From the NCBI RefSeq assembly GCF_014843845.1, contig NZ_JHQS01000019.1, positions 1 to 64,000 of the forward strand: 64,000 bases of DNA, given 5' to 3'. The first letter of the stretch is position 1, and each line of letters opens with the position of its first letter. The translations under genes and the position numbers were made by a program. The notes beneath the pieces were generated by a model. It was not told where the DNA came from. It saw only the letters and a program-made list of their open reading frames with translations, and searched no databases. This document shows, piece after piece, positions 3,706-44,940 of this stretch. The stretch comes from Mesorhizobium amorphae. Its GTDB lineage: Bacteria; Pseudomonadota; Alphaproteobacteria; Rhizobiales; Rhizobiaceae.

Positions 3706-3720
3706 ATAAGCTCTGCTTAT
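3706..3720. promoter_or_regulatory. Candidate LysR-type operator (T-N11-A palindrome) in the mttB/lysR intergenic region
   Basis: ATAAGC-TCT-GCTTAT is a perfect 6-3-6 inverted repeat and fits the T-N11-A LysR consensus (T at 3707, A at 3719). It lies in the 92-bp divergent promoter and its last bases are the ATG of the lysR gene itself, so occupancy would directly block that gene's start. No experimental support is available from sequence alone. Confidence 0.5.
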
Positions 3721-4621
3721 GCGAAGCTTGCGCCACCTCCTGCCCTCCGCCGGCAGCCTGATCGTCTTCGAGGCGGCCGGGCGGCTGTCGAGCTTCACCG
3801 CCGCCGGGCGCGAGCTCGGCATGACGCAGGCCGCCGTCTCCTATGCTGTGCGCGGGTTGGAGGAACAGCTCGGCGCCAAGCTATTCCAACGCCGCCACCG
3901 CCAGGTCAGCCTGACCGAGGCCGGCGAGCGCTTCCATGCCGATGTCTCGCTCGGCCTGTCCCACATCCGAAAATCGGCGGAAGACCTGCGCCTGCAGGTG
4001 ACAGGCGGCCATGTGACGCTTGCCGCGTCGACCGCCTTCGGCTCGTTCTGGATGATGCCGCGCCTGCAGCAGTTCCGCGACGAATTGCCGGGCGTTGATC
4101 TACGCATCCAGACCGCCGACCGCGACCTCGACATCATCGCCGAGGGCATCCCGCTCGGCGTGCGCGGCGGCGTGCCGCGCGATTGGCCGGACTATCATTC
4201 GCTGTCGCTCTCTGACGAGGAGATCTTCCCGGTCGCAGGCCCCAACTATCTGGCGAAGTTTGGGCTGCCGAAGACCGTCGAGGAACTGGCAACGCATCGA
4301 CTCATCCATCTCGAGGAGCCCTACCGCGAGGCCCCGAACTGGGACGAATGGTTCGCGTCCGCAGGAACCAGCCTCCGTAATGCCGAGCGCGGCTTGCGCA
4401 TCAATGACTATGCCTTGGTGATTCAGGCGGTCATGGAGGGACAAGGCATCTCGCTCGGCTGGCGGCATCTGGTCGCGCGCCTCGTGGCATCTGGACTGTT
4501 GGTGCCGGTGACGGATCATGTGCTGAGGACCGGCGTCGGATTCTACGTCATCTGGCCGAAGAACCGCGAGCTGAGCGACAATGCCCGCAAGGTGCGGGAC
4601 TGGTTGGCCGCGCAGGCGTGA
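3719..4621 (+). CDS. LysR family transcriptional regulator (GcvA-like)
   Basis: 300 residues. The N-terminal winged helix-turn-helix is clear (SFTAAGRELGMTQAAVSYAVRGLEEQLGAKLFQRRHRQVSLTEAG, about residues 24-68). It is followed by a LysR_substrate domain of the GcvA group (TLAASTAFGSFWMMPRL, GISLGWRHLVARLVASGLL). It is transcribed divergently from the mttB operon, the usual arrangement for a LysR activator and its target. The chosen ATG gives the family's normal length but lies inside the palindrome at 3706-3720 with no ribosome site in front. The message could be leaderless, or the true start could be elsewhere. Confidence 0.88.
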   Translation: MRSLRHLLPSAGSLIVFEAAGRLSSFTAAGRELGMTQAAVSYAVRGLEEQLGAKLFQRRHRQVSLTEAGERFHADVSLGLSHIRKSAEDLRLQVTGGHVTLAASTAFGSFWMMPRLQQFRDELPGVDLRIQTADRDLDIIAEGIPLGVRGGVPRDWPDYHSLSLSDEEIFPVAGPNYLAKFGLPKTVEELATHRLIHLEEPYREAPNWDEWFASAGTSLRNAERGLRINDYALVIQAVMEGQGISLGWRHLVARLVASGLLVPVTDHVLRTGVGFYVIWPKNRELSDNARKVRDWLAAQA

Positions 4622-4737
4622 GGAGGCAAGCCGCATAGCTGGGATCGCAGCGAGGGGGTGCTGCCCCGCCGTCATGTCCGCTATTCCGCCGCATCGAAAA
4701 CTTCCGCATCCGTTACGAATCCGCCTATAGTGCTCCC

Positions 4738-6600
4738 ATGCCCATCCGCCAGCTTTCCGAAACGATGATCAATCAGATCGCCGCCGGCGAAGTCATCGAG
4801 CGTCCGGCGAGCGTGGTCAAGGAACTGGTCGAGAACGCGCTCGATGCCGGTGCTTCCCGCGTCGAGATCGTTACCGCCGGTGGCGGACTGAACCTGATCC
4901 GCGTCACCGACGACGGTTCAGGCATCCCCGAGCAGGAGCTGGTGCTGGCGATTGCGCGCCACTGCACGTCCAAGCTTGGCGATAACATCCACGACATCCG
5001 CTCGCTCGGCTTTCGCGGCGAGGCGCTGCCGTCGATCGGTTCGGTGGCCAGGCTGTCGATCCGCTCGCGCACTGCATCGGGCGACAGTGCGGCCGAGATC
5101 GGCATCGAGGGCGGCCGTATGTCCGCGGTCAAGCCGGCGGCGGCCAATCGCGGCACAACGGTCGAGGTGCGCGACCTATTCTTCGCCACGCCCGCCCGGC
5201 TCAAGTTCATGAAGGGCGAACGCGCCGAAAGCTCGGCTACCAGCGACGTGGTCAAGCGCATTGCCATTGCCTTCCCTGCCGTGCGCTTCACGCTGGCCGG
5301 TTCCGACCGCTCGACACTGGAATTGCCGGCGACCGAAGACAGCTCTGAGGGCCGCCTTGCCCGTGTCGCACAAGTGATGGGCGCCGACTTTCCGGACAAT
5401 GCGATCGCCATCGATGCCGAGCGGGAGAGCGTGCGGCTTTCCGGCCATGTCTCGATCCCGTCGTTCAGCCGCGCCAACGCGCTGCAGCAATATGCCTATG
5501 TCAATGGCCGGCCGGTGCGCGACAAGCTGATCGCCGGCGCCATTCGCGGCGCTTTCGCCGACGTGCTGCCACGCGACCGCCACGCGGTGACCGTGCTGTT
5601 CCTGACGCTCGATCCGGGAACCGTCGACGTCAATGTCCACCCGGCCAAGGCCGATGTGCGCTTCCGCGATCCCGGACTGGTGCGCGGGCTGATCGTCGGC
5701 GCCATCCGCGAGGCGCTGGCCAATGCCGGCATCCGCGCCGCGACTACAGGTGCGGCCGGCATGATGGCGGCGTTCCGGCCGGGTGCTGCCAGCTACGCGC
5801 ATCCCGGACCGGCCAATGGCCACCGCAGCTACGATGCGGCCTATCGCGCCTCGGGCTTTTCCGGGTTCGACCGCTCAGCGCAGCGGCCGCTCGACATGGA
5901 AGGCGGTGGGCTCGGCAATGGCGGCTTCCGCGAGAACGATCAGGCCGCCTTCGATGCCGGGCCGCTGGCCAGCGCCGATGCGCGAGCCGGCCAGGACGAG
6001 GCGGCCGAGACGCTGCTCGGCACAGTGCTGGGTGCGGCGCGGGCGCAGGTGCATGAGAACTACATCGTCGCCCAAACCAGGGATTCGCTCGTCATCGTCG
6101 ACCAGCACGCGGCGCATGAGCGGCTGGTCTACGAAGCCTTGAAGAATGCGCTGCATGCCCGTGCGGTGCCCTCGCAGATGCTGCTTCTGCCGGAGATCGT
6201 CGACCTGCCTGAGGAGGATGCCGAGCGGCTTGCCATGCATTCCGAGACCTTGGCCCGCTTCGGCCTCGGCATCGAGCGCTTCGGTCCGGGTGCGGTGGCA
6301 GTGCGCGAGACACCGTCGATGCTGGGCGAGACCAATGTGCAGCAGCTGGTGCGCGACCTCGCCGACGAGATCGCCGACAACGATACGGTCGAGACGCTGA
6401 AAGGCCGACTGGACAGGATCGCCGCGACCATGGCCTGCCATGGCTCGGTGCGCTCCGGCCGTCTGCTGAAGGCCGAGGAGATGAACGCGCTGTTGCGCCA
6501 GATGGAGGCGACGCCGGGCTCCGGCACCTGCAACCACGGTCGCCCGACCTATATCGAGCTCAAGCTCGCCGACATAGAAAGGCTGTTCGGGCGGCGGTGA
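4738..6600 (+). CDS. mutL: DNA mismatch repair protein MutL with endonuclease motif
   Basis: 620 residues. GHKL ATPase motifs are in order: [27 protein letters not shown] (motif I with E and N), [17 protein letters not shown] and [20 protein letters not shown] low-complexity linker (about 330-420) precedes the C-terminal dimerisation domain. That domain carries [12 protein letters not shown] from residue 455, which fits the DQHA(X)2E(X)4E metal-binding endonuclease motif, plus ACHGSVRSG and TCNHGRP. The protein is therefore expected to nick DNA itself, as in bacteria without MutH. It acts with MutS, which is not in the window. No operon partner is evident; the next gene starts 43 nt downstream. 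Confidence 0.97.
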
Positions 6601-6643
6601 AGACTGTCTCTGGACCCTCTTCGCCGCTTTTCGAGGTCGCCTC

Positions 6644-7164
6644 GTGCAACGGATCGTAATTCTCGGAAATGCTGGAAGCGGCAAATCAACCCTGGCGAGG
6701 GAAGTGGGTGAACGGCTGAAATTGCCGGTCGTGCATTTGGACAGACTGTTCTGGGGCCGGGTTGGACCAAACCTCAAAATGAGGTCTTTCGTGCAAGCGT
6801 CAACCAAGCCATCTCTGGTAACGGCTGGGTGTGCGAGGGAAACTACTATCGGCAGACTTTCGACCTAAGGCTGCCCCGCGCCAATCTCGTTGTCTGGCTC
6901 GACACCCCTCGCGTAACCTGCCTGAGCCGGGTCATATTGCGTGGCGCATTGAACCGGCCTCGGCTTGATCTTGCGACCGGATGCCGGGAGAGACTGGACA
7001 AAGAGTTTTTGGAGTTTCTGCGCTACATCTGGAATTTCGACCGTGACAGTCGACCGCTCATCGAGCAGGAGCGGCTGGCGAGGGGAGCACTGGTGCCGGT
7101 GATCAACTTGCGTGGCAGCCGTCAGATATCCGACTTCGTAAGCTCGCTTGCTCGCCAGCCCTAA
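6644..7164 (+). pseudogene. Adenylate-kinase-like P-loop NTPase, split by a one-base deletion
   Basis: The first reading frame opens with a P-loop ([24 protein letters not shown]) and [10 protein letters not shown], as in the FlaR/adenylate-kinase-like family. It then loses sense. Shifting by one base after the GGGG run at 6753-6756 restores [17 protein letters not shown] and joins the downstream frame ([27 protein letters not shown] ... IWNFDRDSRP), which ends at 7164. The reconstructed protein of about 173 residues has the expected length and order. So one G appears to be missing near 6753-6758: either a recent inactivation or a homopolymer base-call error. Otherwise both halves look well conserved. 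Confidence 0.8.
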
Positions 7165-33980: not shown

Positions 33981-34127
33981 AGAGGGAGATTAGGGGAAGG
34001 ATTTGGGGATGGCAAGGGGGAATGAAGGCGTCAGCGGTGACAGTGTCAGCACCACTGTCTTTTTCTCTACCGCCTGGCGGTCAGAATCTCCTTAGACATC
34101 TCACCGATTGCAAATATGTGCATTTCA

Positions 34128-34159
34128 TGCAATTTATTCTGCGAAAATTGTGCAATTTA
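34128..34159. promoter_or_regulatory. AT-rich direct and inverted repeats before the 72-aa/GHKL pair
   Basis: TGCAATTTA occurs at 34128-34136 and 34151-34159 (23-bp period). AAATTG-TG-CAATTT at 34145-34158 is a perfect inverted repeat. The stretch is far more AT-rich than its surroundings and ends about 20 bp before the first gene of the accessory pair, so it is a candidate operator/promoter. Confidence 0.4.
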
Positions 34160-34179
34160 CATGGAATGAACTACCGATC

Positions 34180-34398
34180 ATGTCCCAGAAACGTGACAAA
34201 TTTCGCCAATTAGCAGAAAGCCGGACCACAAAAGCACTCGAGGCAATAGCTCGTATAGGCAACCTTTCGAACCGCCAGGTGTACGAATATGAAGAGGCCG
34301 AGGTGAGAAAAATAACACGGGCATTGCGGGACGCCGTAGCTGCGGTGGAAGCTCGCTTCGAAACACCCCGCGTCCGGCAATCAGGCTTCAAATTGTAG
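34180..34398 (+). CDS. Small helical protein paired with GHKL ATPase, function unknown
   Basis: 72 residues: KFRQLAESRTTKALEAIARIGNLSNRQVYEYEEAEV then KITRALRDAVAAVEARF. It is strongly charged and predicted all-helical with no membrane segment. I recognise the block IGNLSNRxxYEY as a recurrent small-protein motif but know no function for it. The gene ends 7 nt before the GHKL ATPase start, so the two are co-transcribed and their products may act together. The ATG at 34180 is chosen because codons further upstream fall in the AT-rich repeat region; its ribosome site is weak. Confidence 0.7.
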   Translation: MSQKRDKFRQLAESRTTKALEAIARIGNLSNRQVYEYEEAEVRKITRALRDAVAAVEARFETPRVRQSGFKL

Positions 34399-34405
34399 GT
34401 TTGCA

Positions 34406-36244
34406 ATGGACACTTCAAGCATTACTCCAATCCAGATTGACGACACCGATTTCTTGGTCGCTACAACGATCGAGCGTTGCCCGCGGACGATGATGATCCG
34501 CGAACTGACGAAGAATGCTCTTGAGGCCGCATCCCAAGCTGCTGAAGGGCAGAGGCAGGTAATTTTCCGAGTAGTCGATTTCGGCGGTACACCAAAACTC
34601 GCCATCTGGAACACCGGACCCGGAATGGATGCCAGCGAACTCTACCGGATGTGCGACCTAGCCGCCTCTATCCGGAAAGAAAAAGGTCTGGACGCGAACT
34701 TCGGCATGGGAGCGAAGGTAGCCTCACTTCCCTCCAACAAGCTTGGAATGATCTATCGATCATGCAAGTCCGGCGAAGTGAACGAAGTCCTGCTCTGTCA
34801 ACGCGATGGCCGCTATGGTCGGCTGCGTCGTCTACTCGATGGCGGTGAGCTTGCAGAAGTCGTGAGCGTTTCGCAGCTGGCGCGCGAGGAAGGATACAAT
34901 CTCGGAGAAGACTGGACGGAAGTGAGACTCCTGGGCAACGAACCCGAACAAGACACGGCGCACGATCCTTTTAACGGCGATCCAACGTCAGATGCCCAGT
35001 GGTTGGCGACGTACCTGTATCACCGATTCTACCGACTACCCGAGGGTGTTCGAGTGGTGCTCCAAAGCGGCACGCACAAGCTAGGCGAAGGAACGCGCGT
35101 ATTCGAACCCTTGCCGCGACGAGCAGCGGCAGGTGCATTCGAAAAGACCGAGACCGTCGAAGCGCCAGGCGGAATCAAAATCCACTACTACTATGACCCG
35201 CCATACGAAAAATCGCCGAGCCACAATCGGTCGATCAGCGGGGCAATTCAATCCGCGCTCAGTCTCGTCGCCGTAGTCTACAAGGACGAACTTTACGACG
35301 TGAAAACTGGAAGAGCCTGGGCAATCAATGCCCCCCTCTTTGGTATCCCGTTCGGATCGAAGCACATTTCCGTCCATATCGAACTCCCGGATAATGCTTC
35401 GGTTCTGCCGGAGGGCTACCGACAGTTTTTGCGTTACCGATCGGGTCAGCAGGAGACCGTCCAAGCCGCGCATTTCGGTGATCTGGTCGCCCAGCACCGG
35501 CCGCAGTGGCTCATCGATCTCATTCGCTCTCTTGCACCTGAAAGTACCTCAAACGACGAAATTCGCGACGAACTTCAGAAACTACTCGATGAGTTGCGCG
35601 TACGTCGTGTTCTGCCACGCGCAATGCCAACCGGGGTCAAGCTCGTAGACTCTTCCTCTGGTGCTGGCATGCAGGCGGCGCGAGAAGGCGAAGGCTCGGC
35701 GGGCATGTCGAGGCCGAAGACCAAGCACGTCGACCTCAATCTAGCCCCGCAAGGTGCAAAAGCGGCGGACCTTTGGAAGGACCGCGAGCGAGCCCCCGAC
35801 CTTGTGCTATTGCGATCAGCGGAGGAAATTGACGATAAGCAGCTTCGTAGCCGGGCTGGACGCTACTACGAGAATGGGCAGCTATTTCTCAACATGCTGT
35901 ATCCTTCGATCACTGAGATGCGCGAGACGCTGGAGGCGTCATACGCCACTGTCGCCGACGTCGATGGCATGCGGGAGGCAGCGCTGCAGCAAGCGGAGAA
36001 GAGCATGATCCTCCGTGTCGGCAGGGCTGTTGTCTTTGCCCTCGCAAAGCAGTTGAACAAAGAATGGGATGCCGACGCAGTCAAGCATGCCTTGGCACCA
36101 GAAAGTTTGAGTCTTGCGGCGGATGATTTCTACGACTCCCTCCAGCCGGCGCGCCGAAGCATGGGTCGTCTATTCAGGCCTAACCGGCAAAGTGACGAGA
36201 CCAATGGCACCGAGGAAGAGGACTTAGGGCTCGTAACTGTGTAA
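34406..36244 (+). CDS. GHKL (HSP90/MutL-like) ATPase of unknown function
   Basis: 612 residues. The N-terminal Bergerat fold is recognisable: RELTKNALEAASQ (Glu33, Asn37), IWNTGPGMDASEL (69-73; Asn replaces the usual Asp of DxGxG) and DANFGMGAKVAS (lid). The middle contains IHYYYDPPYEKSPSHNRS and HISVHIELPDNASVLPEGYRQFLRYRSG. The C-terminal part is helical (LRSRAGRYYENGQLFLNMLYPSITEM) and the tail acidic. There is no transducer matching MutL or HSP90 that I can identify. Base composition is visibly lower in GC than the flanks. Together with the 72-aa protein and a nearby HNH nuclease it looks like accessory, possibly defence-related, DNA. Confidence 0.75.
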   Translation: MDTSSITPIQIDDTDFLVATTIERCPRTMMIRELTKNALEAASQAAEGQRQVIFRVVDFGGTPKLAIWNTGPGMDASELYRMCDLAASIRKEKGLDANFGMGAKVASLPSNKLGMIYRSCKSGEVNEVLLCQRDGRYGRLRRLLDGGELAEVVSVSQLAREEGYNLGEDWTEVRLLGNEPEQDTAHDPFNGDPTSDAQWLATYLYHRFYRLPEGVRVVLQSGTHKLGEGTRVFEPLPRRAAAGAFEKTETVEAPGGIKIHYYYDPPYEKSPSHNRSISGAIQSALSLVAVVYKDELYDVKTGRAWAINAPLFGIPFGSKHISVHIELPDNASVLPEGYRQFLRYRSGQQETVQAAHFGDLVAQHRPQWLIDLIRSLAPESTSNDEIRDELQKLLDELRVRRVLPRAMPTGVKLVDSSSGAGMQAAREGEGSAGMSRPKTKHVDLNLAPQGAKAADLWKDRERAPDLVLLRSAEEIDDKQLRSRAGRYYENGQLFLNMLYPSITEMRETLEASYATVADVDGMREAALQQAEKSMILRVGRAVVFALAKQLNKEWDADAVKHALAPESLSLAADDFYDSLQPARRSMGRLFRPNRQSDETNGTEEEDLGLVTV

Positions 36245-36301
36245 ATCGCAGCCGTCGTATCGAACCGGCCGTCGTCGCCAACGAAAGCTGCTTTCGCCAC
36301 C

Positions 36302-37194
36302 TCATTGCTTGAAGCAATTCTCACGGTGCCATTGCAAGAAACGAGGATGCGGGCGTTCAGACTGCCGGACCGGCGGAAGCGCTCGACCGGTCTTGTTTAT
36401 GAACCCCTGCACACTGTCGAGATCGTGACCTGCCGCGAGACTAGAATTTCCAGATCGTCAGACAGGCTGATCAATCCGCGGTCGAACATCCAGTGCGCCG
36501 TACCAGACAGCGCGATCCCATTGTTGATGATATCCGGACCATTCTGTTCGACCGGTCGAATATGCGCTGCGGAAACCTCTGCTCGGCCGCCGCCATTGAT
36601 CAACTTCAGTCCAGTGATCGCGCAGCGCTCGTCATAGGCGCGTAAAACGACGCGACGGAAAATGCGATCCCGTACAATTCGCGATCCGACATAGCTCACA
36701 CGGTCACGGCTCTGCTCGAATTCAAATGGCGCCTGGTCTTCCTGGAAGCCGGTGCCCATCTCATCAACGCGGGGCAGCACCAACTCATCCGCGTCGAAGC
36801 CCAGATCGTATATGCGGTTGAAGTCGCTTGGACTAAGTAGGCGGACTGCCGATTGAGCACGGCCAGATATCCTTCCCTTGTCGTTGAGCAAGCCTCGTTC
36901 AACGAGACCATCGGGTCCACTGAATGGAACAGGATTGACGAAAGGCACGTAGCTTCGAGGCTCAATAAGAGCAAGGTACATGTCCGGTGTGACGGGGTCG
37001 GGAATGACCTGTTGAACCTTGGCCATCGCGTAATACCCACGGGCATCCTTAACCTTGCTGGGTTCGTAGTAGATTATCGAGCCACCGACGCATGCTTCGA
37101 CACGGCGCAGATACATGCTAGGAAATTGATATTGCTCTTCCGGGCGGTCCTTGTAGATCGAATCTGAGCGGTGAATGAAGACCCCGAAACCCAT
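36302..37194 (-). pseudogene. HNH restriction-type endonuclease, 3' end frameshifted
   Basis: The N-terminal domain (FIHRSDSIYKDRPEEQYQFP, MYLRRVEACVGGSIIYYEPSK) is followed by an intact HNH core (YDERCAITGLKL, EVSAAHIRPVEQNG, NNGIALSGTAHWMFDRGLIS). In the frame of the start codon the protein ends early at 36397 after LVSRQVTISTVCRGS. One base to the side, from about 36425, the sequence continues DSVQGFINKTGRALPPV and ends HPRFLQWHRENCFKQ at 36302, the expected C-terminus. A single missing base (probably A after GTC, 36425-36427) explains this. The catalytic core is retained, so activity of the truncated form is possible. It is convergent with the GHKL gene. Confidence 0.8.
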
Positions 37195-37370
37195 GTTTTC
37201 TACACTGCGATCCTCGGAAATACGTGCGTCAGAGTCGATACAGCCCGATATCGAGAGTTTAGTCTAGTCCAGCGCTGCTTTTCCCCTAGTATCGAGCGAG
37301 CGTATTGCCATTCCACCCCGCCCCGCTTTCTGCTTGAATACCCCCAACATCCAGCCACGGAGCCTACCCC

Positions 37371-37658
37371 ATATCCACCGATCCCTTTGCTCCCTTGCGG
37401 CAGCGTTTCATGGCCCGGTGTGCCGATCAGCTCGCCGAACTGAAGGCCGCGCGTGAAGGCGGTTCCCTGCCCGGCTCCGACGATCCCCTGGTCAAGCTCG
37501 CCCACTCTCTGGCGGGCGCGGCGGGGACGTTCGGCTTTCCGGAGATCAGCGCGCGGGCGTCGGCGCTGGAGACGCTACTGGTCGAGCAGGCGGAGGCCGG
37601 CGCCGCAGCGGCCGCGCTCGATGCGCTGATCGCGGAGATCGAGCGCACCCTGAAATGA
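37371..37658 (+). CDS. Hpt (histidine phosphotransfer) domain protein with ATA in place of start codon
   Basis: About 95 residues forming a four-helix Hpt bundle with the phospho-His motif LVKLAHSLAGAAGTFGF. The natural N-terminus should read (M)STDPFAPLRQRF; the first codon here is ATA (37371-37373), placed exactly 8 nt after a GGAG ribosome site (37359-37362). Translation may start from ATA, from TTG 37395 or ATG 37410, or not occur; a base-call error is also possible. It would relay phosphate between hybrid kinases such as those at 46688-49270 and 52062-54662 and a response regulator. Its 3' end is duplicated at 42398-42445. Confidence 0.7.
   Translation: MSTDPFAPLRQRFMARCADQLAELKAAREGGSLPGSDDPLVKLAHSLAGAAGTFGFPEISARASALETLLVEQAEAGAAAAALDALIAEIERTLK
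37611..37648 (+). repeat. 38-bp direct repeat, left copy (3' end of Hpt gene)
   Basis: GCCGCGCTCGATGCGCTG followed by ATCGCGGAGATCGAGCGCAC is identical to 42398-42435. The copies are 4787 bp apart and flank the nitrile hydratase/PPOX/haloperoxidase segment. A duplicated gene 3' end at both borders is the hallmark of site-specific or repeat-mediated insertion at that gene. Confidence 0.75.
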
Positions 37659-37883
37659 TGCAGTGGGCGGTGCGCGCACCCGCGACCCGGCGAACCTCAA
37701 TTCTTCGACTGAAACGGTGTCGCTTTACGCAAGCTCATGCCGGGAAGCTGAGGTGCCCTGCGGCTGAAGCCGGATCAAACCATCGACTTTGCGCGGGATT
37801 GTCACTGTCACGGCGGCAATCGGGCCTTCAAGTCAGAAAGCGGTCACACTGCCCTATTCGCCTGATTGATCCTTTTGCCCGGC
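37651..37883. repeat. About 233-bp repeat R1, also at 40684-40920
   Basis: It starts at the end of the Hpt gene (TGAAATGATGC...GGGCGGTGCG) and ends CCTTTTGCCCGGC. It matches the R2 copy over its whole length, with scattered substitutions, an 8-bp extra segment in R1 and a 7-bp extra segment in R2. It has no terminal inverted repeats and no believable gene. It fills the space between the Hpt gene and the nitrile hydratase accessory gene. Confidence 0.75.
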
Positions 37884-37913
37884 GCAGGGTGACGCGGGTT
37901 GTAGGTCCGCTGA

Positions 37914-38264
37914 CTAATCTGCCAGGGCTACTGGCTTGCCATGCGGTGTATTCAGGTAGGCGTGTCGCCAGTCCTGTTCGCGTCTGTCCACCTCGGCCTG
38001 TAGCGCGAACTGGCTCCTGTCCAGTATCAGCTCCAAAGCGCTGAGAAAGGCGCTGTAATAGATCGCGTCGGTGTCCATAGCGGCATCGGCCACCCGCCGA
38101 TCAAGCTCGGCGCCTAGGGTCTGCGACCAATCCTCTGCTTCGATCTTTCCGTCGGCGATGAGCAGCTCGACCAACGCAATGACCTGAGCGTGCCATAGCT
38201 CGGAGAAGACCGGTTCGCCATCTCGATGGCGCCGGGCGCGACGGGCAATCTCAGGCCGGCTCAA
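37914..38264 (-). CDS. Nitrile hydratase accessory (activator) protein
   Basis: 116 residues (EPVFSELWHAQVIALVELLIADGKIEAEDWSQTLGAEL, WRHAYLNTPHGKPVAL). The C-terminal block LNTPHGKPV is characteristic of the small proteins related to the beta-subunit N-terminus that accompany cobalt nitrile hydratases. They act as self-subunit-swapping chaperones delivering the metal-loaded alpha subunit. The only usable start is a TTG at 38262-38264, overlapping the beta gene's 3' end by 14 nt, so expression is coupled. It is last of the three-gene operon. Confidence 0.85.
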   Translation of the reverse strand: MSRPEIARRARRHRDGEPVFSELWHAQVIALVELLIADGKIEAEDWSQTLGAELDRRVADAAMDTDAIYYSAFLSALELILDRSQFALQAEVDRREQDWRHAYLNTPHGKPVALAD

Positions 38265-38889
38265 GATAGCTGTCCCACATATCGATCTGCAGGCTGTCTG
38301 CGCTGTCGCCGGCTTCAGGCCAAAGATCCGCCATGCGAAACCGCACGACGTAGGTCTGCTCGCGCCGTATCGTGCCGACAGCTTTCTTGTCGGGCAAAGC
38401 CTGTGGTCCGATCACACTGTCGACAACCCCGGGCCTGCCGCGGACATAGCCCGTCAGCCGCGTGTGCATTGTGGCGATGTCGCGCCGTGCCACAACCTTG
38501 TCGCCAGCTTTGAACCTTGCCCCTGTGGGCGGTGCCTCCACCGTAGGCCTGGGCGACTCATATTCGAAGGTTCGACTTGAGGCCCTGCCATCGAAGAACT
38601 CCTGAACGCCCGCGACGCCTTCATCCACAGACGTGACCATCATGGCCAGAATCCATTTCTCGAAATAGTCGAGACCGAGGTAGGCGTCCGGGGGGAGCCT
38701 TTCCAGGACGTGGCGATACCAATCGAGCGTCCAGCCCGTGCGATCCGTCGTCAGCTTTTTCATCGACATCATGGCGATCGCCCATGTGCGCGCCTTCCAT
38801 TCATCGGAAAACAGAGCCGAGTCATCTTCTGCGACGTTCGGGATCGGTCGGAACCCTTGTCTGCCGCCGAGGTCGTGTACCGTATCCAT
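38251..38889 (-). CDS. nthB: Nitrile hydratase beta subunit
   Basis: 212 residues. The N-terminus MDTVHDLGGRQGFRPI is the standard beta-subunit start (xxHDLGGxxGF). Later blocks are WYRHVLERLPPDAYLGLDYFEKWILAMM and, in the C-terminal SH3-like barrel, ARFKAGDKVVARRDIATMHTRLTGYVRGRPGVVD. It contributes to the active site of the alpha-beta heterodimer, which hydrates nitriles to amides in the cytoplasm. The ATG at 38887-38889 overlaps the alpha stop by one base (TGATG). No amidase gene is adjacent in the window. Confidence 0.9.
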   Translation of the reverse strand: MDTVHDLGGRQGFRPIPNVAEDDSALFSDEWKARTWAIAMMSMKKLTTDRTGWTLDWYRHVLERLPPDAYLGLDYFEKWILAMMVTSVDEGVAGVQEFFDGRASSRTFEYESPRPTVEAPPTGARFKAGDKVVARRDIATMHTRLTGYVRGRPGVVDSVIGPQALPDKKAVGTIRREQTYVVRFRMADLWPEAGDSADSLQIDMWDSYLEPA

Positions 38890-39536
38890 CACCCCGCCTC
38901 CTGCTTTGGCGACAGGTCCCTCGTCGTCCCAATCATTGCATTGCGCGTCACGAGGCCGGCGAGATCCTCTTCGGTCCAGCCGTCCGTCCCCTCTGGACGC
39001 TCCGGAACCACCATGTAGCGGCGGTCTGAAGTCGAGTCCCACACCCTGACCTCAACCTTTTCCGGTAGGTCGGTTCCGAATTCGGTGAGAACGCCACGCG
39101 GATCGCGGACCACTCGCGCCCGGTACTCGGTAGACTTGTACCAAGATGGAGACATTCCCAAGATTCCGAGTGGATAGCAGGAACATAAGGTACAAACGAC
39201 AACGTTGTGGATATCAGGCGTGTTGAACACTGCGACAAGGGGGTAATCCTTGTCGACGCTCGGGACGATTTCCGAAAACGCCTCGGCCGCATGTTTTGCG
39301 AGGCGTTCGGCGAAATCGGGATCAGTCCATGCCCGCGCGATGACCTTGGCTCCATTCATCGGACCTACGTTTTCCGAGTAGTCGTCGAGCCACTTGTCCA
39401 CGGCGTCGGCCGCCAGAAAGCCCTTCTCGACCAGAACCGTCTCCAGTGCCTTCAGGCGAAGCGCCGGTTCAGGTGGAAGATGGCTGTGCAATTCCCGATG
39501 AAGTTTGGCAACCTTGTCGGAATCATATGAGCTCAC
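38889..39536 (-). CDS. nthA: Nitrile hydratase alpha subunit, cobalt type
   Basis: 215 residues. The metal claw is VVVCTLCSCYP (Cys115, Cys118, Cys120). Thr between the first Cys and Leu marks the cobalt class; iron enzymes have Ser. The conserved WYKSTEYRARVVRDPRGVL follows. The GTG start at 39534-39536 has AGGGAGGG about 6 nt upstream. It is first gene of alpha-beta-accessory, the usual order for Co-type enzymes. It lies inside the inserted segment between the Hpt-tail repeats, so it was probably acquired. A thiocyanate-hydrolase-like specificity cannot be excluded. Confidence 0.92.
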   Translation of the reverse strand: MSSYDSDKVAKLHRELHSHLPPEPALRLKALETVLVEKGFLAADAVDKWLDDYSENVGPMNGAKVIARAWTDPDFAERLAKHAAEAFSEIVPSVDKDYPLVAVFNTPDIHNVVVCTLCSCYPLGILGMSPSWYKSTEYRARVVRDPRGVLTEFGTDLPEKVEVRVWDSTSDRRYMVVPERPEGTDGWTEEDLAGLVTRNAMIGTTRDLSPKQEAG

Positions 39537-40083
39537 TGATGCCCTCCCTGAGTATCATTCCTGCTTCGCACCGCGCTGGGGTGGACTCTTAGGGTTGGTG
39601 GCTAACTCCCCGCTGACCATCAAGGGACCAGACTATTGGAGCAGTGCACTCGAGTCATTGACTTTCTGACCTTGCGTCAGCTTAGAGGTCGAAGCCGATG
39701 TCGTGCAGCTTTGGGGCCCTGCAAGCGGCGACTGCACCGAGCGCCCACCAGGGCACGCGCCAGGCACGAGACCATTGTTCTCGCCAGTTCGACACTCCGA
39801 TATGATCGGCCCTCGATATCGCGTAAACTGATAGAGGTTCTCAGTGCTTCCGGAATGAGACGATGCGCCCGGCCAAGATCCGACATGCGAGACGTGATGG
39901 CGAGGATCGCGTACCGGGCGATGGGCATGGGCTCGGGCGATCTGGTGCTCGTGCCTGGCTTTCTCTCGCGATTGCATCGAAGGCCGCCCATGCTGACGGC
40001 GGCGAGAGCCTCGCGCCCCGACGTACGACTTGCCGCGTCACTCAGGATCGGACCATGACCCGAGTTGTTAAGGAGGAACGTCC
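39537..40083. other. 547-bp gap with a possible gene remnant
   Basis: It separates the divergent nitrile hydratase and PPOX genes and must hold both promoters. On the plus strand, near 39880-39975, a fragment reads RIAYRAMGMGSGDLVLVPGFLS, which resembles the N-terminal block of alpha/beta-hydrolase-type adenylate-cyclase proteins (xIAYxVxGxGDLVLVPGF). No start or downstream domain accompanies it, so it is at most a decayed remnant. Nothing else was recognised. Confidence 0.3.
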
Positions 40084-40686
40084 ATGACCGGCGACGCTTT
40101 TTATCACGAAGGCAATCGCTCCCTGCAGGACCGCTTCGAGAGCCGGCGCATCGCTGACCGCCTGGCAAAGATGGCGCGGACGGCCTTCACCGACGAGGAT
40201 AAGGCGTTCATCGAGAATTCGATTTACTTCTTTCTTGCCACGGTCGACGCCGAGGGACGGCCGGACTGCTCATTCAAGGGCGGCCCGCCCGGCTTCGTGC
40301 GTGTCATTGGGCCGTCGGAGCTGGCGTTCCCGGATTATGACGGCAACGGCATGTTCAGGAGCCTCGGCAACCTCGACGTCAATCCGAACGTCGCGCTGTT
40401 GTTCATCGCCATGCACGGCACGCCGCGCCGCCTGCGCATTAACGGCGCCGCCCGGATCGACCGAGACGATCCGCTAACAGGCAGCACCGTCGGCGCACAG
40501 ATGATGGTGCGCGTGGAGGCGCGCGTCATCTTCCCTAACTGTCCGCGCTACATCCCGACGATGCAGCTCAGCGAGCCATCGCCCTACACGCCCATGCCGG
40601 GCTGCGATCTGATCGAACCTGCGTGGAAGGGCTTCGACGCCTTCAAGGACGACGTCCATCCGCGCCAGCCGACATGGAAAGGCTGA
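40084..40686 (+). CDS. Pyridoxamine 5'-phosphate oxidase-family (split-barrel flavin) protein
   Basis: 200 residues. The split-barrel core is visible in FLATVDAEGRPDCSFKGGPPGFVRVIGPSELAFPDYDGNGMFRSLGNLDVNPNVALLFI, followed by RRLRINGAARI. Proteins of this class bind FMN or F420 and reduce or oxidise varied substrates; the reaction here is unknown. A strong AAGGAGG ribosome site precedes the ATG. Its stop codon is the first base block of repeat R2, which shows that the R2 junction falls exactly at the gene end. Confidence 0.85.
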   Translation: MTGDAFYHEGNRSLQDRFESRRIADRLAKMARTAFTDEDKAFIENSIYFFLATVDAEGRPDCSFKGGPPGFVRVIGPSELAFPDYDGNGMFRSLGNLDVNPNVALLFIAMHGTPRRLRINGAARIDRDDPLTGSTVGAQMMVRVEARVIFPNCPRYIPTMQLSEPSPYTPMPGCDLIEPAWKGFDAFKDDVHPRQPTWKG

Positions 40687-40920
40687 AAATGATGCGGAGG
40701 GCGGTGCGTGCACCCCGCGACCCGGCGAACCTCAATTCTTCGACTGTCGCTTTACTCAAGCTCATGCCGGGAAGCTGACGCTACCCGCGGCAGAAAGCCG
40801 GTCGTCGAAACATCGACTTTGCGCGGGATTGTCACTCTCACGGCGGCAATCGGGCCTTCAAGTCAGAAAGCGGTCACCAACAACACTGCCCTATTCGCCT
40901 GATTGATCCTTTTGCCCGGC
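40684..40920. repeat. About 237-bp repeat R2, partner of R1
   Basis: It begins TGAAAATGATGCGGAGGGCGGTGCG and ends GATCCTTTTGCCCGGC, matching 37651-37883. Its first 30 bp also resemble the sequence after the right Hpt-tail copy (AATGACGGAGGCGG at 42441). The roughly 100 bp between R2 and the next gene (40921-41022) show no gene. Confidence 0.75.
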
Positions 40921-41022
40921 GGTGTTCGGCGCTATAATAAGCGATCGCTAAAATTAGACGGAGCAGCTGTAAAACCAGAACGGTGACGTCTTTGGGCGGG
41001 GGGCCACCATGGGAGGCCAAAC

Positions 41023-42375
41023 ATGCTCAGCGCCTTATGCAAGGCTTGCGCAGTGATCCTTTTGTCCATGAACTGCGCTTTCGCCCAATCGGATCTGATA
41101 GAGCCAAAGGCTGGAACCTGGAAGACGTGGGTGATCACGTCGGGCAAGGACTTGCGGGTCCCGCCCCCGCCGGATAGTTCCACAGCCGAGCTTGCGCAGC
41201 TCCGCGATATCATCGCAAAGAACGATGCGCAGGTCGCCGCGAAGATCAGGTTCTGGGATGCCGGCTCGCCCGGCTATCGATGGATCGACCTGGTCAACGA
41301 GCGCCTTCTCGAAGGCCAGCAGATTCCCAACGCACACCGCGTCTATGCCTATTTGACGATGGCGATCCACGACGCCACCATTGCCGCGTGGGAGTCGAAG
41401 TATTTCTACAATCGCCCGCGCCCGAGCGAGGCGGATGCGTCACTGCCGGTTGTGCTGCCCACGCCGCGGAGTCCCTCCTACCCATCGGAGCATGCCGCAG
41501 CCGCCGGCGCCGCCGCGACCGTGCTGTCCTATTTCTTTCCGGACGAGGCGTCGTCGTTCAAGGCAATGGCCGAAGAAGCGGCACAGTCCCGTGTCCATGC
41601 CGGTCTGCAATTCCCGAGCGATTCTTCCGCCGGCCTCGAATTGGGGCGGCGGGTGGCCGAACAGGTGATTGCGCGGGCAAAGGCCGATGGCTCCGACGCA
41701 GTCTGGACCGGCACGGTGCCGACCGGGCCATGCAAGTGGGTCGGAGACAAGCCCGTCAACGCAACCGTGCCGAACTGGAAGCCGATCGTGCTCGCAGCAG
41801 CCGACGAATTCAGGCCGCCGGCCCCACCCGACTGCCAGTCCCCGGCCGTGAAGGCCGAGACGGATGCAGTCCGGCAGTTCGAGCGAAAATTCCCCAACAG
41901 CTACAAGGCGTTCTATTGGCAGAGCCCATCCGGCCTGTTCACCGACTGGTATGACTATGCCAGCAAGTGGATGTTCGAGGACAAGACGGACTCGAACCCG
42001 CCGCGTGCCGCGCGGGCCTACGCGATGCTCGCAACGGTGTTCTACGACGCCCTCATTGCAAGCAACGACGGGAAGTACACCTATTGGTACCTGCGTCCGC
42101 ACATGCTCGATAAGGGCATCACGCCGCTGTTTGCAGTGCCGGCTCATCCCAGTTATCCGTCCAACCACTCCACTCTTTCGACTGCCCGATGCGAGGTCCT
42201 GGCGTACCTGTTTCCCGGCCATGCGGAATTCATCCGCAAGGTTGGCAAAGAGGCCGGCGATTCGCGCGTCTGGGCCGGCATCCACTACCAGATGGACAAC
42301 GAGGCCGGTGCCGCGCTCGGCAAAGCGGTCGCGGCGAAATTCATCGAGCGGGCGAGAAAGGACGGAGCAGACTAG
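41023..42375 (+). CDS. Secreted vanadium haloperoxidase/PAP2-like protein with two tandem domains
   Basis: 450 residues with signal peptide (SALCKACAVILLSMNCAFA). Two PAP2-type active-site sets are present. Domain 1: Lys126-x6-Arg133-Pro134, PSYPSEH (His157), Ser189-Arg190-x5-Gln196-x3-Asp200. Domain 2: Lys351-x6-Arg358-Pro359, PSYPSNH (His382), Ser414-Arg415-x5-His421-x3-Asp425. Domain 2 has the complete phosphate/vanadate pocket including the covalent-ligand His421. In domain 1 that His is Gln, so it is probably inactive or structural. The family includes acid phosphatases and V-dependent haloperoxidases; which applies here is open. Confidence 0.82.
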   Translation: MLSALCKACAVILLSMNCAFAQSDLIEPKAGTWKTWVITSGKDLRVPPPPDSSTAELAQLRDIIAKNDAQVAAKIRFWDAGSPGYRWIDLVNERLLEGQQIPNAHRVYAYLTMAIHDATIAAWESKYFYNRPRPSEADASLPVVLPTPRSPSYPSEHAAAAGAAATVLSYFFPDEASSFKAMAEEAAQSRVHAGLQFPSDSSAGLELGRRVAEQVIARAKADGSDAVWTGTVPTGPCKWVGDKPVNATVPNWKPIVLAAADEFRPPAPPDCQSPAVKAETDAVRQFERKFPNSYKAFYWQSPSGLFTDWYDYASKWMFEDKTDSNPPRAARAYAMLATVFYDALIASNDGKYTYWYLRPHMLDKGITPLFAVPAHPSYPSNHSTLSTARCEVLAYLFPGHAEFIRKVGKEAGDSRVWAGIHYQMDNEAGAALGKAVAAKFIERARKDGAD

Positions 42376-42397
42376 GTGCGATGACGGGGCGATTGGC

Positions 42398-42445
42398 GCC
42401 GCGCTCGATGCGCTGATCGCGGAGATCGAGCGCACGCTGCAATGA
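42398..42445 (+). repeat. Right copy of Hpt-gene 3' end (orphan gene tail)
   Basis: The first 38 bp are identical to 37611-37648. The following CGCTGCAATGA completes the Hpt reading frame (ALDALIAEIERTLQ stop), versus ...TLK in the left copy. It has no start of its own. This is the original 3' end left behind when the 4.8-kb segment entered the Hpt gene tail. Confidence 0.75.
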
Positions 42446-42449
42446 CGGA

Positions 42450-42470
42450 GGCGGCCGTGCGCCGGCCGCC
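42450..42470. terminator. Hairpin between Hpt tail and GT2 gene, possibly a bidirectional terminator
   Basis: GGCGGCCG (42450-42457) and CGGCCGCC (42463-42470) form a perfect 8-bp GC stem with a 5-nt loop. It sits in the 30-bp gap between two convergent reading frames. No T-tract follows on either strand, so termination strength is uncertain. Confidence 0.5.
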
Positions 42471-42475
42471 CCTGT

Positions 42476-43906
42476 TCATTTCTTCGCGCCGCCGAGACCG
42501 GTCCTGGTCATCTCGCCCCAGCCCTGGTCGCCGCGCAGAAATTGCCACCAGCCCTTCACGCGCCAGAAATTGTTGAGCTGGCGGTAGCCGAAATTCTCGA
42601 TCACGGCGACGGCGGTGAGCACGGCGAGATCCCGCGCGCGCGGAAAACGCTGCAGCTCGGCCTCTTCGAGGACCAGCGAGCACACGCTGACACAGACGCC
42701 ATAGGTGAAGACGAGCGAGGTGAACGCCAGCAAGTACTCGGCCGACAGGATGCCGAGCAGCCAGAAGGCCGGGATCAGCACATAGCCCAGCACCTCCGCC
42801 ACCGGCCCCAGCACATCGACAACCAGTATGTGGCCGAAACCCAGGAAGCCGACGCGGCCATAGCGCGGGTTGAACAGCATGGAGCGGTAGCGGAAGAAGC
42901 ATTCGAGCGCGCCGCGCTGCCAGCGCGTGCGCTGCCTGCCCAGCACGCTGAGCGTCTCCGGCGCCTCGGTCCAGCAAACCGGCTCCGGGACGAACTGGAT
43001 GCTATATTTGCGCTTCGTATCGCGCATGTAGCGGTGCAGCTTGATCACCAGGTCCATGTCCTCGCCCATCGAGCCTCGGGTGAAGCCGCCAACCGCCACG
43101 ACTTCGGCGCGGCGGAACAGGCCGAAGGCGCCGGACACCAGCATCAGCGTGTTGATGCGGCTCCAGGCCAGCCGCGCCATCAGGAAGGCGCGCAGATATT
43201 CGACCACCTGGAACAGCGCCACCAACCGGGTGGGCAGGTGGATCTCGCGCACCCTGCCCGCTTCGATCCTCGATCCGTTGGCGATGCGGATCGTGCCGCC
43301 GACCGCGATGGTGCGCTCGGGATCGTCGATGAAGGGCTGGGCGGCGCGCATCAACGCATCGGGCTCGAGGATGGAGTCGCCGTCGATGACGCAGAAGAGC
43401 GGCGCGCGGCAGACATTGATGCCGGCATTCTGGGCATCGGCCTTGCCGCCATTCTCCTTGTCGATCACGAACAGCCGCTCGGTCATCGGCGAGGAATAGA
43501 GGCCGCGGATCGGCTTGTGCGTCACGGCCTCCTCATAGGGCCGGTGGAATTTCACCAGCTTGAATCCTTCGATAAGGCGTTGCAGCGTCTGGTCCTTCGA
43601 GCCGTCGTTGATGACGATCACCTCGAAATTCGGATATTCGAGCGCCAGCATCGAATGGACGCTCTCGACCACGTTCACTTCCTCATTGTAGGCGGGCACC
43701 AGCAGCGCGATCGGCGGCGCGACGTCGCCATAGCGGTGCCACAACAACGCCGAACGGGCGACCGGCGGGCGCCTGGAAAGCGCGTAGGCGGCGACGATGA
43801 GCTGCAGCAGGTAAACCGCCGTCTGCGCCAACCCTGCCCCGATGATGAACCAGGACAGGATGGAAGCGGCCAGCACGATCCCGTGGCTCCAGTCTGCGAC
43901 CATCAT
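42476..43906 (-). CDS. Family 2 processive glycosyltransferase (PgaC/NfrB-like synthase)
   Basis: 476 residues. N-terminal membrane helices (IVLAASILSWFIIGAGLAQTAVYLLQLIVAAYAL) lead to a GT-A domain with NDGSKDQ, CVIDGDSI (DxD-like), SMGEDMD and QRTRWQRG (QxxRW, typical of processive synthases). Several C-terminal helices follow. It would polymerise an exported polysaccharide at the inner membrane. The ATG at 43904-43906 overlaps the HEAT gene stop (ATGA). It is last of a four-gene operon with the TPR/barrel protein. No PilZ domain is visible. Confidence 0.9.
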   Translation of the reverse strand: MMVADWSHGIVLAASILSWFIIGAGLAQTAVYLLQLIVAAYALSRRPPVARSALLWHRYGDVAPPIALLVPAYNEEVNVVESVHSMLALEYPNFEVIVINDGSKDQTLQRLIEGFKLVKFHRPYEEAVTHKPIRGLYSSPMTERLFVIDKENGGKADAQNAGINVCRAPLFCVIDGDSILEPDALMRAAQPFIDDPERTIAVGGTIRIANGSRIEAGRVREIHLPTRLVALFQVVEYLRAFLMARLAWSRINTLMLVSGAFGLFRRAEVVAVGGFTRGSMGEDMDLVIKLHRYMRDTKRKYSIQFVPEPVCWTEAPETLSVLGRQRTRWQRGALECFFRYRSMLFNPRYGRVGFLGFGHILVVDVLGPVAEVLGYVLIPAFWLLGILSAEYLLAFTSLVFTYGVCVSVCSLVLEEAELQRFPRARDLAVLTAVAVIENFGYRQLNNFWRVKGWWQFLRGDQGWGEMTRTGLGGAKK

Positions 43907-44940
43907 ATGGCGGGCCCCTCGGCAAGAATGAGCGAAGCGGTGCGCTGGCTGCGCGAAACCTCGCTCGCGGCGATCTCCTGCAGGACGCGTTCCCCCGGCT
44001 GGCCGAACGAACGCAGCGCGTTGGCGGCGGCATAGCGCACGGTCCATGCCTCGTCGTCCATCAGTTGCGCGAGCGGCGCGGCGAGTTCGGACAGGCCGAG
44101 GCGGCCGGCGGCGTTGGCGGCGTCGGCACGCACGTCCCAGTCGTCATTTGCCATCGCCTTGACCAGGATGGTCGGTGCGTCGGTATGCCCCGTCAGGCCG
44201 AGCGCCCGAAGTGCGGCGGCGGCAACTTCGGCCGAGGGATCGCCGACCGCGCGGGCGAAGAAATCGGCAAACCGGAACCCGCCGCTGCGAGCCAGCGCGT
44301 CGATCGCGGCCGCCCTTGTGAAAGGCACCGCGTCCTGACGGCCGGCGTGATCCTCAAGCTCTTCGAACCGCCGTGGCGGAAAGCGCCTGAAGAGCTCGAT
44401 CAGGCGCCGCGAGCGCTGCCCCGCAATGCCGATCTTGCGCAGCGTTATGACGAGCGGCGGCAAGGCGCCGACATCGCAGAGCGCGATGGCGGCGGCGATC
44501 CTGACCTCGCGCGAGCGGTCGCGGTCGAGGGCCGAAAGCAGGCTTGCCACGGCGTTTTCCGAACGCAGCGCCGCCAGCATCTCGGCGGCGTGGATGCGTT
44601 CGGCGCCGTTGCCGCGCTCCAACTGCTTGCCGATCAGGGCCGGCAGGCCGCATTCGTTGAAGGCGGCAACGACATCGTCATGCTCCTCGCCGCGCAACAG
44701 GGAAATGAACTCGAAGCCGGCATCGATCGCCACGCTCGCCGGCACCGAGAGCAGCACCGCCTTCAGTGCCTCGCGATCCCGGTTTTCGGTGAAGGCGATC
44801 AGCGCCGTCAGAAGAAAGCGCCGCTGGTCGGCCGCCGCCGTGCCGCGGCGCTCGTGCAGCACCCGTCGCGCGATCAACAGCAGCATGATCACCAGGGAAA
44901 GGGCGCTGAGCAGGATGGACATGTCCCAGACGAGCCACAT
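43903..44940 (-). CDS. HEAT-repeat protein with N-terminal membrane anchor
   Basis: 345 residues. One N-terminal helix (SILLSALSLVIMLLLIA) is followed by arginines, which places the rest in the cytoplasm. The remainder is a series of HEAT/PBS-type helical repeats (AALRSENAVASLLSALDRDRSREVRIAAAIALCDVG, PSAEVAAAALRALGLTGHTDAPTILVKAMANDDWDVRADAANAAGRLG). Such repeats act as protein scaffolds. It lies between the TPR/barrel exporter (2-nt gap) and the GT2 synthase (4-nt overlap), so it probably organises or regulates the synthase complex. Confidence 0.85.
   Translation of the reverse strand: MWLVWDMSILLSALSLVIMLLLIARRVLHERRGTAAADQRRFLLTALIAFTENRDREALKAVLLSVPASVAIDAGFEFISLLRGEEHDDVVAAFNECGLPALIGKQLERGNGAERIHAAEMLAALRSENAVASLLSALDRDRSREVRIAAAIALCDVGALPPLVITLRKIGIAGQRSRRLIELFRRFPPRRFEELEDHAGRQDAVPFTRAAAIDALARSGGFRFADFFARAVGDPSAEVAAAALRALGLTGHTDAPTILVKAMANDDWDVRADAANAAGRLGLSELAAPLAQLMDDEAWTVRYAAANALRSFGQPGERVLQEIAASEVSRSQRTASLILAEGPAI

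Follow-up and report, generated by a model that had tools for sequence, protein, structure and literature searches.

The stretch of DNA analyzed here (the window) comprises 64,000 nucleotides of Mesorhizobium amorphae (assembly GCF_014843845.1, contig NZ_JHQS01000019.1, positions 1 to 64,000 of the forward strand); its locus is contig C82 of genome G000 in a comparison set of 146 genomes of the genus. It contains an intact gene for an Hpt-domain protein, followed by a 4.8-kb segment with genes for nitrile hydratase, a PPOX-type flavoprotein, and a PAP2-family protein (here called VHPO), then by a truncated second copy of the Hpt 3' end, and finally by a convergent GT2 glycosyltransferase gene. 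The segment is an insertion made of two stacked modules, and the same kind of gene-end duplication flanks cargo at other genes of the genus. We propose that such modules were probably captured by host recombination, with no recombinase of their own. The features of the locus, several of them open reading frames (ORFs), are as follows.

37395-37658 (+), Hpt-domain gene, intact copy (ORF; Pfam Hpt, 2.1e-12)
within 37395-37658 (+), Hpt 3' end, assigned to a foreign type, with last codon, stop, and following DNA in CTG AAA TGA TGC (tail types compared, 29 genomes)
37611-37658 (+), left copy of the Hpt tail (repeat comparison, BLAST)
37653-37884, R1, left copy of a second repeat: last Hpt codon, downstream DNA, and the beginning of the VHPO upstream region (matched in its right part by DNA upstream of VHPO in G144)
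37885-40686, module B, nitrile hydratase genes and PPOX gene (cross-genome comparison)
37914-38264 (-), probable nitrile hydratase accessory protein (NCBIfam TIGR03889, 1.1e-8, under the cutoff; no Pfam match)
38251-39042 (-), nitrile hydratase beta subunit (Pfam NHase_beta N and C; TIGR03888 just under the cutoff); the ORF overlaps that of alpha, so the true beta start is probably further inside
38889-39536 (-), nitrile hydratase alpha subunit (Pfam, 2.3e-78; TIGR01323 over the cutoff)
40084-40686 (+), PPOX-type flavoprotein, whose stop codon is the end of module B (Pfam PNPOx_N; PPOX subfamily below the NCBIfam cutoff)
40687-40921, R2, right copy of the second repeat (repeat alignment)
40835-42375 (+), module A, the PAP2-family gene (VHPO) and its upstream region (stretch common with G144; ends compared in 12 genomes)
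41023-42375 (+), VHPO gene proper (Pfam PAP2, 1.9e-23)
42394-42445 (+), right relic, the final ~52 bp of a native-type Hpt gene with its stop, CTG CAA TGA CGG (repeat and tail-type comparison)
42476-44047 (-), GT2 glycosyltransferase, native convergent neighbor of Hpt (Pfam; adjoins Hpt in 27/30 fetched loci)

Two stacked modules at the end of an Hpt gene

The two copies of the Hpt tail (37611-37658 and 42398-42445) form a direct repeat whose 38 initial bases are identical and which matches at 46 of 48 positions overall, or at 89% of 65 when 17 bases after the stop codon are included. In a BLAST search within its own genome, the repeat gave an E value of 3.7e-15, with two tail copies reported and no others. 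The left gene is intact and its product ends in TLK; the right frame is a start-less relic that reads TLQ and then stops. The 38-bp repeat and both of its ends had been described in an original prediction, made by a model from the letters alone, and all of them hold. That prediction also named the cargo. The alpha and beta subunits of nitrile hydratase and the PNPOx_N domain of the PPOX-type protein were recovered with Pfam, while its "haloperoxidase" is placed by Pfam in the PAP2 superfamily and no more narrowly; VHPO is thus the name of a predicted function, and plasmid records label a relative "phosphatase PAP2 family protein." As the prediction had also stated, the Pfam scan of the module ORFs found no integrase between the repeats. 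It likewise gave no transposase match among the ORFs scanned, and a tRNA scan of the window found none.

A search of the 146 genomes for Hpt returned 43 places in 39 genomes (E < 1e-20), and 30 of these loci, including the window's own, were fetched. The end of Hpt lies 14 to 155 bp from the end of GT2 in 27 of the 30, which are empty sites; two sites are filled (G000 and G002), and one locus runs off its contig. Because Hpt directly precedes GT2 in 27 loci, the 4.8 kb is an insertion at the Hpt tail, as had been suspected. Both Hpt and GT2 are intact in the window, and the insertion is a duplication in which no gene was lost. The second filled site, in G002, reads Hpt-R-VHPO-relic (R being the second repeat, described below) and has neither nitrile hydratase nor PPOX.

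Comparison of Hpt tails in 29 genomes distinguished the two ends of the insertion. The left tail, AAA TGA TGC, is present in G000 and G002; among the remaining 27 genomes, G017 is the only one to have it. The native-like tail, CAA TGA CG, is found in the right relics of G000 and G002 and also in G119, G001, and G077. Judged by these tail types, it is the left Hpt end that came from outside and the right relic that represents the native gene, in line with the earlier proposal of a replacement 3' end.

The prediction treated the 4.8 kb as a single segment, and in this it was mistaken. It had overlooked a second, longer direct repeat, R (R1, 37653-37884; R2, 40687-40921; 232 to 235 bp), which runs from the last Hpt codon through into the VHPO upstream region and splits the segment into two modules. 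R1 and R2 are 86% identical by BLAST and differ by 17 substitutions and gaps in a three-way alignment. Among the 146 genomes, full-length R is confined to G000 and G002, for which reason the idea that R is a dispersed repeat was rejected. Partial copies occur as VHPO upstream DNA in G144, G136, and G133, and 27 bp of R are found in G097 and G031. An exact 22-mer of R matched one record in a contig collection, that of M. amorphae CCNWGS0123, and G002 appears to be the chromosome of this strain.

The segment is two stacked modules, one with VHPO and one with nitrile hydratase and PPOX, because each of these occurs apart from the other at unrelated places in other genomes. VHPO is present in 12 of the 146 genomes (E up to 1e-60). 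In genome pairs besides G000/G002, the similar stretch around VHPO mostly reaches 1 to about 190 bp upstream of the start codon (at most about 380) and mostly 3 to 22 bp past the stop codon (at most about 240), so that the module ends are ragged, and the surroundings differ between genomes. Module B (37885-40686) is 94% identical to a stretch of G144 (contig C257) and, from 37921 on, 93% identical to one in G048. G133 and G044 have nitrile hydratase without PPOX, and G082 has PPOX without nitrile hydratase, in each case away from Hpt. The nitrile hydratase surroundings are the same in G044 (L096) and G048 (L094), apart from 1.16 kb with PPOX that only G048 has. In a plasmid collection, no record held 80% of the segment in one place; the best matches were 84.7% for VHPO (a Rhizobium plasmid) and 70.2% for nitrile hydratase.

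G002 may be an intermediate or may have lost module B later. If its single R were the product of a deletion between R1 and R2, it could be a mosaic of the two, but no mosaic was found (a single switch fits at best 11 of 16 sites, all of them like R1, with a permutation p of 1.0), so that either order of the two insertion events may apply.

The Hpt locus is variable in other respects. Two full-length Hpt genes, 75% identical, lie 8.9 kb apart in G077; the ends of both Hpt and GT2 persist as a relic in G119; and in G098 the 5' part of Hpt is duplicated. In G139 (L101, about 4374) the GT2 gene is mostly gone, with the equivalent of window positions 42396-42620 joined to that of 44034 onward. The slot to the left of Hpt (window 34020-37306) also varies. 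In the window it holds a 612-amino-acid ORF that matched nothing in Pfam, PADLOC, or NCBIfam, together with an HNH nuclease (PADLOC HNH match); in G002 it holds a PD-Lambda-5_A-like defense protein split over two ORFs, and its content is different again in G077, G095, G098, and G119.

The same scar at other genes

Further cases were found by searching with the left neighbors of two other VHPO copies and by a blind scan of part of G002. In G133, VHPO lies behind an ABC ATPase gene whose end is repeated after VHPO (259 bp). Copies of this gene's end also enclose other cargo in G140 (333 bp), in G097 (285 bp, with the cargo of G140), and in G054 (186 bp), and the relic starts differ between events at this gene. 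An aldose epimerase gene has its end duplicated in G140 (515 bp, with 5.9 kb between the copies) and in G073 (546 bp, with 15.2 kb between). Second tail copies at the ABC ATPase and aldose epimerase genes are lower bounds, as three to four candidates were scored per genome. Behind the ABC ATPase gene of G054 (L141), further direct repeats of 42 to 190 bp lie at 3708-6810, which may mean more than one event. Overall, the gene-end repeats span about 50 to 550 bp.

A clean empty site belongs to a third gene, to which one pair of the blind scan led. In G144, VHPO is flanked by the end of an MscS-family gene (316 bp), and in G000 and G002 this gene continues into the same downstream DNA without VHPO. 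Past the stop codon, the right copy of G144 continues like G000 and G002, and the left copy differs. Both the MscS-family gene and its downstream DNA are kept in G144, so this, too, is a duplication with no gene lost. In that pair, in G002 (G002:C1:3397347-3412217), two copies of the end of the MscS-family gene enclose 14.6 kb that include a chaperonin (cpn60) gene; the relation of this stretch to G000 and G144 is complex, parts of it being present there in another order.

We scanned 24 cargo ORFs from five loci (L139-L143), which are part of the cargo ORFs there, and found no recombinase family among them. Seventeen had Pfam families (hydrolases, dehydrogenases, TetR and LysR regulators, pirin, cupins, nitronate monooxygenase, isochorismatase, cyclase, and a transcriptional regulator with ATPase), and seven had none. 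The blind scan, covering 0.8 Mb of G002, returned 17 direct-repeat pairs 45 to 1200 bp long and 0.6 to 25 kb apart. Two of the pairs were examined closely, and some of the other 15 sit inside repeats or genes. One pair (158 bp) flanks an efflux operon of G002; G144 lacks the operon (3058586-3065048 of G002) and has one copy there.

How the modules may have entered

The two copies of a gene end differ in a way that bears on their origin. In six coding cases, left copy and relic differ at 15, 6, and 44 sites at codon positions 1, 2, and 3, over 553, 555, and 556 columns (chi-square p 1.4e-8), a count that keeps the ABC ATPase case of G140 though its frame looks miscalled and in which G140 and G097 share one insertion. 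At the differing sites of the four ABC ATPase cases, the majority base is in the left copy 28 times, in the relic 24 times, and in neither 3 times. Because it is split almost evenly, most of the divergence is not relic decay. On the whole, the copies appear to have diverged as functional alleles in two lineages before they met; the excess of third-position differences speaks against duplication in place and favors incoming DNA that carried its own gene end. Which copy looks foreign varies, being the left one at Hpt and in G144 and perhaps the relic in G097. This fits a single crossover, because the position of the crossover decides which copy is foreign.

We therefore favor, with a probability of about 0.55, capture by host recombination in which circularized foreign DNA is integrated through a single crossover and no recombinase is required. 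The incoming DNA would consist of a piece homologous to the end of a resident gene, joined to cargo. Its ends would be ligated into a circle, with Ku/LigD as a possible ligating enzyme; G000 has three Ku genes, which could help in this step. The circle would then enter the chromosome through a single RecA-type crossover within the gene end common to both. The resident gene would remain intact but acquire a mixed 3' end, followed by the cargo and, beyond it, a gene-end relic. At Hpt, two rounds would have taken place, one bringing VHPO to the Hpt tail (common to G002) and one placing nitrile hydratase and PPOX between Hpt and VHPO, with the ~235-bp stretch repeated on both sides of the latter. 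The circle, the crossover, the ligating enzyme, and the order of the two events are inferred. An integrase is not needed in this model, and none was found in the modules or on the contig. Laboratory experiments in Escherichia coli offer a parallel: in the available text of PMC3240628, linear DNA homologous to the lacZ end gave partial end duplications in 56 of 60 Lac- clones, 109 to 950 bp long in the 14 clones sequenced, and these were ascribed to circularization and a single crossover. The scars described here agree with the lacZ-end duplications in size and shape.

Several observations weigh against single-crossover capture. VHPO occupies at most 11 sites in its 12 genomes (G000 and G002 counted as one), and the scar is present at 3 of these (G000/G002, G133, and G144). 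No clear flanking repeat is present at 7 of the 11: VHPO in G033, G140, G039, G031, and G036 has no repeat, and in G013 and G136 there are only 43- to 45-bp matches away from the module. The remaining site, in G143 (L246), has only 107- to 139-bp repeats of a kind that recurs between genomes and was counted as undecided. Contigs end near two of these sites, leaving 1.4 kb on the left in G143 and 2.4 kb on the right in G013. (Recurrent repeats also crowd upstream of VHPO in G033, G039, and G013.) The scar is absent from all five other nitrile hydratase/PPOX loci (G044 and G048 being one site, and some flanks being short). The assignment of foreign and native ends rests on few sites, and the Hpt relic is short (~52 bp). 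No genome was found to have Hpt and then VHPO without a relic, which leaves the donor arrangement unproven. For the roughly 130 bp that separate the Hpt end from the VHPO upstream DNA (37676-37804), the 146 genomes offer no source beyond G000/G002. Hpt is 88% identical between G000 and G002 within surroundings of 94 to 96%, which the model leaves unexplained. Nearly all relatives (13/14 for G133 and 14/15 for G073) are slightly more distant from the relic than from the left copy, which points to some relic decay. The efflux-operon pair of G002 is not clean, as an additional ~0.9 kb outside the left copy is not shared and G000 has 7 kb of other DNA at this place.

The many VHPO sites that lack a repeat could instead be products of homology-facilitated illegitimate recombination (HFIR), in which a linear donor recombines homologously at the gene and an illegitimate joining upstream of the crossover duplicates the gene end. 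HFIR needs a single homologous anchor and yields foreign gene ends and ragged cargo ends, and the accessible part of PMC5361080 proposes it for stacked effector-immunity modules in Vibrio. Usually, however, it couples an insertion to the loss of a similar length of DNA: in the lacZ experiment, true HFIR accounted for 4 of 60 clones, with deletions, and the duplications came via single crossover (PMC3240628, in the text available). The cases here are duplications without gene loss (at the Hpt and MscS-family sites, small deletions being possible), although a search based on repeats is blind to deletions and thus biased. As the source of the scars themselves, HFIR is in our view an unlikely candidate.

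The remaining explanations are improbable. In end-joining repair of a break that captured foreign DNA, fill-in of long staggered ends would duplicate the target on the spot. The three Ku genes of G000, the ragged junctions, and the slight excess divergence of the relics in G133 and G073 would suit such repair, but copies made on the spot start identical and the relic then decays at all codon positions, whereas the observed differences are mostly at third positions and near-equally shared; moreover, the left end is of the foreign type. An arrangement that arrived by ordinary double-crossover transfer from another strain, its founding event having occurred elsewhere by whatever route, would account for the VHPO insertion common to G000 and G002, for the other insertion common to G140 and G097, and for an Hpt gene that differs more than its surroundings between G000 and G002, as after local replacement; yet it leaves the origin of the duplications unexplained, and we give it little credence. 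The integrative element of the original prediction, with the Hpt 3' end as att site and an integrase lost or supplied in trans, matches the gene-end location, the foreign 3' end on the left, and the native relic on the right but is largely refuted by relic starts that vary at one gene, repeats of ~50 to 550 bp, cargo that recurs at unrelated genes, the duplicated 5' Hpt fragment of G098, a second repeat that differs from the Hpt tail, and the lack of an integrase in the modules and on contig C82, the 29 Phage_integrase matches (PF00589; 27 over the cutoff) all lying elsewhere in the genome (serine recombinases were not searched genome-wide).

Relation to known routes of gene gain

Genomic islands and integrative and conjugative elements at gene 3' ends replace the gene end and leave a relic on the far side. 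The insertions described here resemble them in the replaced end and the far relic, but have no integrase that could be found and no fixed core, and the repeat length and the genes vary. Closer is single-crossover (Campbell) integration at the E. coli lacZ end, as far as PMC3240628 describes it, in which a gene-end duplication also flanks an insert that has no recombinase of its own; the present cases differ in being natural, between lineages, and at several genes, with the cargo fixed in genomes. HFIR, in the context of natural transformation and the orphan immunity-gene arrays of Vibrio (PMC5361080, accessible part), shares the one-sided homology and the stacking of modules behind a conserved gene; it differs in that it typically yields insertion with deletion, and here there is duplication. 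A final comparison is with the small variable segments of E. coli and two other species, which the available text of PMC2884548 attributes largely to illegitimate recombination, with 10 to 18% flanked by repeats. They are alike in being small insertions that mobile elements do not explain, but their repeats are mostly <30 bp, compared with gene ends of two lineages of about 50 to 550 bp here.

In a literature limited to open-licence papers, and hence as a weak negative, we found no paper that describes gene-end duplications in nature as the mark left by this route. The route itself is known from the laboratory; the natural scar at gene ends would be the new part. More tentatively, and at less than even odds, single-crossover capture of ligated, circularized fragments at gene ends may be a general recombinase-free route by which small metabolic modules enter Mesorhizobium genomes, perhaps aided by several Ku proteins, with a scar that would tell the donor lineage, the landing gene, and the order of events. 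Many small bacterial gene gains show no mark of entry. A gene-end repeat formed from two strains would be such a mark, and one that can be searched for genome-wide; if the reading is true, it would provide a way to count the gene gain of soil bacteria that needs no mobile element.

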